In this document: positions 56,581 through 59,025 of the stretch, one piece after another | Layout: each line of letters begins with the position of its first letter | Numbering within the stretch: position 1 is the stretch's first letter | The notes under the pieces: generated by a model | What the model saw: only the letters and a program-made list of their open reading frames with translations | Database searches by the model: none | What the model was told of the DNA's origin: nothing | NCBI RefSeq assembly: GCF_000314005.1 | Contig: NZ_JH980292.1 | Coordinates: 922,530-986,529, forward strand | From: Spirulina subsalsa PCC 9445 | GTDB taxonomy: Bacteria; Cyanobacteriota; Cyanobacteriia; Cyanobacteriales; Spirulinaceae | Length of the DNA: 64,000 bases | Reading direction: 5' to 3' | Program-made: the position numbers and the translations under genes

Positions 56581-57408
56581 TTAATACCGTTGACGCGCCC
56601 AATGAGTGCGAATCCAAACCAAAATTAACCACACTCCAGAGAGAATTGTTCCGATATTCAGTTTGACAGAGTTTTTGAGCAGGGTTAGTTTTTGCGTTTC
56701 CCACTGAATCCCTACTTGCCGCATAAATTCCTGTTCTGCTTCGTCAATTTTAACTCGGATTTGATTGCGATAGGTAGCGAGATTATTGGGAGATTCCACC
56801 GTGAAATTAACCACCTGCGCCACATCATTTAACTCGGAAATAGTGGTAGCAGATTGTAGACGATTGCGCAGTTGATTCACTTGGAAAATTTCGCGGGAAA
56901 TTTGGTCTTCTACTTGGATTTTATTGAATTGATGAATCCGCCAAGTATTGCCTAATCCCAAGGGGAGGAGGAAGAGGTAGGTTAATCCTAATAATAAAGC
57001 GAACCAAGAGAGCAACCGTAAGCGCCGCATTTGCCAGCGTGTGAGTTTTTCTTGACGGTTGTAGAAAATACAAACAAATCCTAATAAGGGCGCCCAAATT
57101 CGTTCGACTAATCCCCCCATTACTTCAAACTGCCAAATGGGGTCGGTTAAACGAGGAGGGACGACTAAATACACAAAATCAACGAGGGTAAAGAGGAGTA
57201 AGGCGTAACCAACAAGGGGCAGGAGGGAGAGGGAATGATAGAGAGCATTTTCAGACAAAACAATCCCCCGTCTTCTGCTTTTGTTGGGGGCTTTTGACCA
57301 CCCCTCAGCGGTGGGGGGTGGGGCAAGATTGGCAGATTTGGGGGAGGGGGGGTCTGAGGATGGGTCAGAGTTGGGGGGGGTGGATGGGGAAAGATCAGAT
57401 TGAGACAA
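56581..57408 (-). CDS. HpsJ-like membrane protein
   Basis: The 275-residue protein has a Pro/Ser-rich N-terminal tail, three clustered transmembrane helices (about 57-80, 96-115, 128-155), a coiled-coil-like region (about 165-240; RNRLQSATTISELNDVAQVV) and a last helix (about 247-268). This architecture and 'NALYHSLSLLPLVGYALLLFTLVDFV' resemble HpsJ, a protein of the hormogonium polysaccharide system needed for gliding of filamentous cyanobacteria. Other hps genes are not here. The start is TTG at 57408; there is no better ATG. Assignment is by family resemblance, with moderate confidence. Confidence 0.72.
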   Translation of the reverse strand: MSQSDLSPSTPPNSDPSSDPPSPKSANLAPPPTAEGWSKAPNKSRRRGIVLSENALYHSLSLLPLVGYALLLFTLVDFVYLVVPPRLTDPIWQFEVMGGLVERIWAPLLGFVCIFYNRQEKLTRWQMRRLRLLSWFALLLGLTYLFLLPLGLGNTWRIHQFNKIQVEDQISREIFQVNQLRNRLQSATTISELNDVAQVVNFTVESPNNLATYRNQIRVKIDEAEQEFMRQVGIQWETQKLTLLKNSVKLNIGTILSGVWLILVWIRTHWARQRY

Positions 57409-57447
57409 AATGCTAAAACCCTGTGTAGTCAGTCTTTACCTCCTCGA

Positions 57448-57963
57448 CTATACTCCATCAGAGGAGCTTGAGGAAAGGTTAGGAATAAGGGTAGTGGGGG
57501 CGGGATTTTCTGCGGTTTGGCGGCCTTTTTTCCGTCGAGATGCTACTGCCCAAACTCCAGCCCCGACCAGTAACGCGACGGTGGGGTTAAAATCCCAAGG
57601 AGCAGCGGCCGCACCTAACGGGGAAAAGGTAACAGGCCCGGAAATCCCCCCCAGACTCCCGTTTGTAGCGGAAAAGGTTAGGGTATTGCCGCCAAAAGTC
57701 CCGGTGAAGTTGGCGCTGGAGATATTCCCCCCAGAAATATTAAAGGTTCCACCTCCCCCATAGTTTCCGATGCTGCCACCAATGGGGGAATTTGTTACTG
57801 TGACTTGACTCGCACCACCGCCCCCCGGTGGAACTCCGGTAATTGTCCCACTCACACTTTGAAAGGAAAAGCTGAAATCTAGAGCAAGGGCGGGTAACGA
57901 CCAACTCAGAGAGCCTAGAGTTAGACCTAAAATGCTGAGAGATTTAATAAGTGAGGATGGCAT
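57448..57963 (-). CDS. Secreted Gly/Ser-rich protein with CTERM-type sorting signal, probable exosortase substrate
   Basis: From ATG 57963 the product of about 171 residues has a signal peptide (MPSSLIKSLSILGLTLGSLS..., cleavage near ALA), a Gly/Ser/Thr-rich beta-strand region, and a sorting-signal-like end: APWDFNPTVALLV-G-AGVWAVASRRKKGR. This resembles the P-F-E type CTERM signal with PWDF in place of the usual motif, a hydrophobic helix and a basic cluster. Unusually, 20 more residues (AENPAPTTLIPNLSSSSSDG) follow the basic cluster. The exosortase gene is adjacent and divergent, 171 bases away, so it is the likely processing enzyme. The protein should reach the outer surface. An alternative start is ATG 57981. 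Confidence 0.78.
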   Translation of the reverse strand: MPSSLIKSLSILGLTLGSLSWSLPALALDFSFSFQSVSGTITGVPPGGGGASQVTVTNSPIGGSIGNYGGGGTFNISGGNISSANFTGTFGGNTLTFSATNGSLGGISGPVTFSPLGAAAAPWDFNPTVALLVGAGVWAVASRRKKGRQTAENPAPTTLIPNLSSSSSDGV

Positions 57964-58134
57964 GGTAGACCCCAGAAACATAGCTAACTTGTAGTCTAAC
58001 TCAGGATTGAGGAATATTCTACAAAGAATTAATAACCCGCCCGAAGGGGAGAAAACCCTCTGATGGGGGATTTCCTGCGATACAATCCCCTTTAACGAAG
58101 GTCTGATGTTGGAAACTTAGACAACCCAAGAATT

Positions 58135-59025
58135 ATGATGGCTTTAACGTGGTTTCGCTCTCTGACTAGGATGAGTCAAGTCCTCTTAGGCATGGGTGGG
58201 GTGATTTTTGCGTTGACTCTTCATGTGCTGGGGGTGGCAGGACTCAGCAGTTTACAGGCGACAACGGTTTTATTTGCGATCGCCTTTATCCTACGCCTCC
58301 GCCCAAACCAAGTCACCCCCCACCCCCACCCCACCCCCCCTCATCTCTTCCTAGCGGGAGTTTGGATTCTCTTTTTAGTCCTCAATCAAGCCCCCCTCGC
58401 CGCTCAAAATTGGCTCATTTATTTCCTCCCCCTGACTACAGCCATCGGTCTAAGTCTGCTCCTCTTCGGCCGCGCTCAGTGGGGCAAATATTCCCAACAT
58501 TTAACCCTGTTTATTATTCTAACTTTACCCATTGAACGACTCATTCACCCCATTAATAACCTCCTGAAAGTTAGTCATTTTATGACACAATTATCTACCT
58601 TTTTGTTATGGTATGTGGGCTTTAATGTAGATTATCACGAGGACTTTATTGTATTTCCACAGCGCGCCATGTGGATTGATCCTCACTGTGCCGGAATTGC
58701 TACCATTCTCTGGATGTTACAGCTTGCCCTGCTCTTTTTAATCATGATTCCTACCTCTAAATTGTATAAAATTATTGTTCCTTTAGTTGCTATTTTAACA
58801 GTCTTATTTGTCAATGGAATCCGCCTAGGAATGCTTGCCTTTTTTGCCGCCCATTCCCCCGCCGCTTTTGACTTTTGGCACTCTGATAATAGTCAAATTT
58901 TCTCGACCTTACCGATTGTATTATTTGGTATATTTTGCTGGTTTACTGCCCAAAACAAGACCCATCAAACTAATCCACAAGAGCAATTTAGCTCTGAATC
59001 TACTCCCCTAATAAAAGAGCGCTAG
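58135..59025 (+). CDS. Cyanoexosortase (dedicated exosortase)
   Basis: The 296-residue membrane protein has about eight helices and the exosortase catalytic triad: Cys185 in IDPHCAGIATI, Arg230 in FVNGIRLGMLAFFAAH, and His249 in FWHSDNSQIFS. Exosortases cut CTERM-type signals during export and attach the protein to the envelope, probably with exopolysaccharide systems. The cyanobacterial variant fits the single-target type, and the divergent neighbour carries a matching signal. It is probably cyanoexosortase C, but the subtype is inferred. No associated glycosyltransferase or EpsI-like gene is adjacent. Start codons ATGATG at 58135/58138 both work. Confidence 0.88.
   Translation: MMALTWFRSLTRMSQVLLGMGGVIFALTLHVLGVAGLSSLQATTVLFAIAFILRLRPNQVTPHPHPTPPHLFLAGVWILFLVLNQAPLAAQNWLIYFLPLTTAIGLSLLLFGRAQWGKYSQHLTLFIILTLPIERLIHPINNLLKVSHFMTQLSTFLLWYVGFNVDYHEDFIVFPQRAMWIDPHCAGIATILWMLQLALLFLIMIPTSKLYKIIVPLVAILTVLFVNGIRLGMLAFFAAHSPAAFDFWHSDNSQIFSTLPIVLFGIFCWFTAQNKTHQTNPQEQFSSESTPLIKER

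Follow-up and report, generated by a model that had tools for sequence, protein, structure and literature searches.

Dedicated sorting systems, in which a sorting enzyme is paired with a single target per genome, have been described before, and in rhombosortase systems the enzyme and its sole target are mostly adjacent, according to passages of PMC3237569. A section of PMC8416519, citing Haft 2012, likewise holds that the majority of sortases are each specific for a few targets or just one. The locus studied here resembles the systems in those passages of PMC3237569 in that the enzyme gene adjoins its only apparent target, and differs in that 22 PEP-CTERM tails and two further exosortases are found in its genome as well. 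Among cyanobacteria, part of PMC12188702 reports 35 predicted PEP-CTERM proteins for the cyanoexosortase B of Nostoc punctiforme; as in our case, exported proteins with a C-terminal tag are the presumed targets of an exosortase, but that enzyme belongs to a different subfamily, and our genome has its own cyanoexosortase B at another locus (L002, 440.8 bits, with its associated protein adjoining). Another comparison is with the cyanoexosortase A systems (TIGR03763 with NF050013 and TIGR04153), which share with this locus the enzyme group, judged by score and tree, the Cys, Arg and His residues, and an HpsJ-like neighbour; here, however, the enzyme falls below the TIGR03763 cut-off, lacks an adjoining TIGR04153 gene, and faces a substrate whose tail is PFE-like rather than PEP. 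This kind of system is already known, and the version described below is somewhat unusual.

The window, by which we mean the whole stretch of 64,000 nucleotides that was analyzed, comes from Spirulina subsalsa PCC 9445 (genome G000, 5.3 Mb), whose nearest relative among the genomes compared is G001. We consider it very probable that the window encodes a small sorting cassette, composed of an exosortase of the cyanoexosortase A group, an HpsJ-like protein and a dedicated substrate whose sorting signal is a diverged PFE-CTERM. The features, in window coordinates, are as follows:

56581..57408, minus strand: HpsJ-like protein A (NF050013, 230.2 bits, cut-off 140)
57448..57981, minus strand: candidate substrate, 177 aa as the longest ORF (ORF listing, orthologue alignment)
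57451..57519, minus strand: C-terminal extension of 23 residues beyond the basic cluster, not counting the stop codon (orthologue tails, dN/dS)
57520..57615, minus strand: predicted sorting signal, consisting of GAAAA-PWDFNPT, a hydrophobic helix and RRKKGR (tail profile, dN/dS)
57982..58134, no strand: divergent intergenic region between substrate and exosortase, 153 bp
58135..59025, plus strand: exosortase, cyanoexosortase A-like, 296 aa, with Cys185, Arg230 and His249 (PF09721 and TIGR03763 scores, residue read-out)

Both ORFs are present in G000 at these coordinates, and the divergent exosortase and substrate pair put forward by the original prediction was borne out, with 153 bp between the two genes. 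Its three catalytic positions (Cys185, Arg230 and His249) were exact when read from the sequence, the signal peptide it assigned to the substrate agrees with an N-terminus that is Sec-like as judged by eye, and the PWDF motif and basic cluster are where it saw them, as the protein ends in GAAAAPWDFNPT, the helix, RRKKGR and then 23 residues (in full, ...GAAAAPWDFNPTVALLVGAGVWAVASRRKKGR followed by those 23 residues). What it overlooked were the HpsJ-like neighbour, the two other exosortases of the genome and the missing partner protein. The substrate likely starts at the ATG at 57963, giving 171 aa, since this codon lines up with a Met of the G003 orthologue and GGGG stands shortly before it. 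Only 39 bp separate the substrate gene from the downstream HpsJ-like gene on the same strand, and the two probably form one operon. An antisense ORF of 117 aa (57410-57763, plus strand) lies over the substrate gene and is open in G001 too; it is probably a by-product of codon usage.

The exosortase scores 83.5 bits with PF09721 (cut-off 25.7) and 46.2 bits with TIGR04178 (cut-off 23), which places it in the family. With the cyanoexosortase A model TIGR03763 it reaches 138.5 bits, short of the cut-off of 150, and this counts against the cassette as we describe it. A search of 195 genomes with the window exosortase alone as query singled out seven genomes: G000, G001 and G003, of the same family, and G099, G131, G169 and G181, of another family. 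The six other enzymes are 39 to 84% identical to the window enzyme (E 5.1e-56 or better); with TIGR03763 the G001 enzyme is also below the cut-off (141.5), and the remainder are above it (G003 157.9, G131 177.7, G169 206.2, G099 213.9, G181 215.9). Cys, Arg and His are invariant in all seven rows of the alignment, the window row included, and we take them to be the active site, as in the exosortase family. The next matches, at contigs G099:C48 and G181:C273, are 37% identical (E 3.2e-49 or better), followed by matches at E 1.1e-39 and weaker; G099 also has a broken 86-residue fragment, 49% identical to the window enzyme, on contig C159. The predicted structure of the exosortase has a mean pLDDT of 62 and no Foldseek match in the PDB at E 0.001 or better, and a sequence search at E 10 gave no relative of solved structure.

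The seven enzymes form one group with an SH-aLRT of 100 in a quick maximum-likelihood tree that has 121 exosortase rows, including three duplicates; long branches make the deeper forks of this tree unsafe. When 388 genomes of the order were searched with a profile built from the seven, no other genome of this kind came up: the seven scored between 415 and 485 bits and the match after them 282, although part of this gap follows from how the profile was built. A scan of genome contigs returned a match only in Spirulina subsalsa FACHB-351, in a search that may omit records near the window's own. In the same quick tree, the exosortases at G099:C48 (L238) and G181:C273 (L240) are sister to the window clade, and beside them neither an HpsJ-like protein nor a partner was seen, nor any convincing substrate.

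The substrate had no family match in Pfam or NCBIfam at E 1, and its predicted structure (mean pLDDT 63, with an all-beta middle) no Foldseek match in the PDB at E 0.001 or better. Its tail shares with PFE-CTERM (NF050011) a proline, an aromatic, an acidic residue and Phe, followed by N/S-P, a helix and a basic cluster; unlike the model, it has Trp for Phe and Asp for Glu, runs for 50 residues from the proline, and scores below the cut-off. The NF050011 score is 14.6 bits for the 28-residue tail piece and 12.0 bits in the genome search (cut-off 24), which also counts against the cassette; the whole substrate was not listed in the NF050011 search, and the orthologues fail as well (G003 13.5 bits, G001 not listed). 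With the PEP-CTERM model TIGR02595 the same piece scores 15.4 bits, and 13.5 bits in the genome, under a cut-off of 16, and it has no PEP motif. By NF050011 on its own, two PEP-CTERM tails of G000 do better than the window tail (20.4 bits against 12.0), with only positions 9-26 of the 28-position model matched, and this too counts against the cassette. The term PFE-CTERM did not occur in the open-licence papers searched, which does not establish its absence from print.

Tails were also compared with profiles of our own. Since ten of the 21 genomes searched with the ten-row tail profile A1 had supplied its rows, their best E-values are self-matches, and the independent test is a leave-out profile of 13 PFE-like tails from which the rows of G000, G001 and G003 were withheld. 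It gives the window tail 22.0 bits, the G001 tail 20.2 and the G003 tail 25.7, whereas the best PEP-CTERM tail of G000 reaches 5.8 bits and the best of 2000 shuffles of the window tail 8.1 bits. For this reason the window signal is best read, from sequence comparison, as a diverged PFE-CTERM and not as a PEP-CTERM. The signal is thus atypical, as originally claimed, only when set against PEP-CTERM; as a type it is already catalogued by NCBIfam, although it lies below that model's cut-off. That the curated models leave the tail uncalled would fit a chance neighbourhood of an unrelated exosortase and an ordinary secreted protein that ends in a membrane helix, but the distance from the shuffles, together with an adjacency that recurs across two families, in seven genomes, while the ectodomains differ, makes such a coincidence extremely improbable.

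This adjacency is further evidence for the cassette. In all seven clade members the enzyme adjoins a protein whose tail has the form P-[WFY]-[DEN]-F-[NS]-P-T; the two genes are divergent in G000, G001 and G003, and in G131, G169 and G181 the end of the substrate gene overlaps the start of the exosortase gene by four bases. The four substrates of the second family pass NF050011 (39.4 to 42.2 bits, cut-off 24), a further likeness to PFE-CTERM, and belong to the choice-of-anchor Y family (NF050052, 136 to 178 bits), a model without a match in the window protein. BLASTP of the window protein against the G131 and G169 substrates aligned significantly in the tail only, and two types of ectodomain occur among the seven adjacent PFE-like substrates.

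Two further exosortases are present in G000, the cyanoexosortase B already mentioned and a standard cyanoexosortase A (252.6 bits), which adjoins a cistern-family PEP-CTERM protein. TIGR02595 exceeds its cut-off at 22 places in this genome, at one of them only together with its neighbours in frame, and 22 PEP-CTERM tails were read out; among 24 rows, the tail of a truncated ORF at L045 was discarded as false and another row was the window tail itself. In G000 the components of cyanoexosortase A systems sit at three separate loci: the standard enzyme with the cistern-family PEP-CTERM protein (C2:2493288-2494070), a TIGR04153 partner with another HpsJ-like protein A (C2:3706255-3707627), and the window cassette (56581-59025). 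At least one of the two other enzymes is needed for the 22 PEP-CTERM tails, and either might process the window substrate as well, leaving the adjoining enzyme to another target, an idea to which a TIGR02595 score just under the cut-off (15.4 against 16) lends something. We regard this as unlikely, as the leave-out profile separates the window tail from the PEP tails (22.0 bits against at most 5.8), the gene pair has stayed together in seven of seven clade members despite the change of ectodomain, and G003 keeps the pair with no second match at E 1e-8 in the search that used the window exosortase as query.

A dedicated pair is also well supported by tail counts. With A1, counting matches below E 0.01, the window tail is the only one in G000, where it is also alone below E 0.1 (next best 0.158), and it lies beside the enzyme, so the search of the genome for other proteins with the same C-terminal motif returned a single protein. 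One match each was likewise found in G001, G003, G131, G099 (next 0.041), G031, G023 and G090, two in G169 and G033, three in G181, and four in G057 and G015. Eight genomes had none: G005 to G010, members of the window's family in which the enzyme itself was not matched at E 1e-8, and also G093 and G165, with enzymes on another branch. These counts are to be read with the sensitivity of A1 in mind, which misses some PFE-like tails (it finds one of the two read near the G023 enzyme). Judged from these sequences, enzyme and substrate seem to pair one to one in the Spirulina group and in two of the remaining four clade members; the further PFE-like tails of G169 (two in all) and G181 (three) count against the cassette. 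The one-enzyme, one-substrate system of the original prediction is supported by the sole tail and by the adjacency in seven of seven; dedicated systems are already in print (passages of PMC3237569).

The length of the tail was the other feature thought to be unusual. The extension past the basic cluster is real, and numbers 23 residues instead of the 20 first counted. From the motif proline, the tails of the window protein and the G001 orthologue are 50 residues long and that of G003 is 41, against 22 to 32 residues from the motif for the 22 PEP-CTERM tails of G000. In the part of the Haft 2006 survey used here (PMC1569441), 87% of PEP-CTERM proteins have fewer than 10 residues past the 24-residue model, and very few have dramatically longer tails, which may be non-functional. 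Exceptional or rare by these standards, the length is less so among PFE-like tails: of 26 distinct ones picked up with a single pattern in the loci retrieved, six have at least 41 residues (the window, G001, G003, G460 with 45, G015 with 47 and G181 with 51), and outside the window protein and its two orthologues, 3 of 23 are 45 residues or longer.

The orthologous proteins are 89% and 52% identical to the window protein, and the 12-residue motif block GAAAAPWDFNPT is identical in G000, G001 and G003. Between G000 and G001, dN/dS is 0.04 for the motif and helix (26 codons), 0.16 for the ectodomain and 0.28 after RRKKG (24 codons), the first and last being small regions; the exosortase gene has a value of 0.14 and the HpsJ-like gene one of 0.07. 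Purifying selection on the motif and helix is strong, and the extension, though less constrained, is genuine coding sequence. A frameshift origin of the tail was ruled out because the G001 tail has the same length and frame, the G003 tail is nine residues shorter, and dN/dS is 0.28; the comparison of orthologue tails revealed neither loss of the motif nor a frameshift. It could still be argued that the signal is a decaying, non-functional CTERM and that the protein stays anchored in the inner membrane, given that the tail is the fastest-evolving region and that dramatically long PEP-CTERM tails may not function (the same part of PMC1569441). We find this quite unlikely, as the motif and helix evolve more slowly than the ectodomain (0.04), the block is invariant over three genomes, and other PFE-like proteins have tails of similar length.

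If the cassette works as we propose, the substrate would be exported by Sec and then retained by its C-terminal helix. The exosortase, through Cys185 with Arg230 and His249, would cut near PWDFNPT at the outer face of the membrane, and the cut would free or transfer the ectodomain, which is small and probably all-beta. Sequence comparison shows the pairing, the adjacency and the selection that acts on the signal, while cleavage, cut site and fate of the product are inferred by analogy with the exosortase family. To our knowledge, exosortase target recognition and the events after cleavage have been little tested. One enzyme and one 171-residue substrate, with no adjoining partner gene, would make a convenient system to reconstitute, in which one could ask if the enzyme is specified by PWDF and not by PEP, and if a short cytoplasmic tail is required. 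In addition, the clade offers a natural experiment, with the same enzyme type and the same kind of tag on different ectodomains.

Which other genes belong to the cassette is less uniform. An HpsJ-like gene lies near the enzyme in four of the seven clade members (G000, G001, G003 and G131) and was not found there in G099, G169 and G181, and it is therefore not a fixed part. A TIGR04153 partner is beside the enzyme in none of the seven. In a search of 22 genomes with the curated model, G003 and G099 had no match over the cut-off, and G000, G001, G131, G169 and G181 had one at another locus, the single match of G000 lying far off at C2:3706255. Across the tree, where partners were called with our own profile within 2.5 kb or as fusions, 89 of 121 rows have a partner-like gene, which is usual with cyanoexosortase A and not universal. 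A missing partner as hallmark of the window clade alone was ruled out, and its absence from the clade is only suggestive, because other exosortase branches also go without one and 14 of the 32 rows without a partner within 2.5 kb have less than 1.5 kb of flank on the shorter side. Only tentatively, then, do we suggest that the clade might be a distinct exosortase subtype without a TIGR04153 partner, which would recognize an aromatic-acidic-Phe signal (PWDF, PFDF, PFNF or PYEF) on a neighbour whose ectodomain has been swapped between lineages, with the Spirulina lineage accepting or using a conserved cytoplasmic extension.

Another cyanoexosortase A branch (L081, L085, L087, L088, L090, L096 and L099) had no partner-like gene found beside the enzyme, each row having less than 1.5 kb on its shorter flank. 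In sixteen exosortases of 429 to 557 aa (L149, L146, L151, L154-L157, L161-L166, L169, L170 and L172) a cyanoexosortase A-like domain appears to be fused to a TIGR04153 partner; one of them, L149:4774-6372, was tested with NCBIfam. A few kb or less from the long exosortases at L161, L163 and L164 there are tails of the kind VPWETDALP or VPLESDALP.
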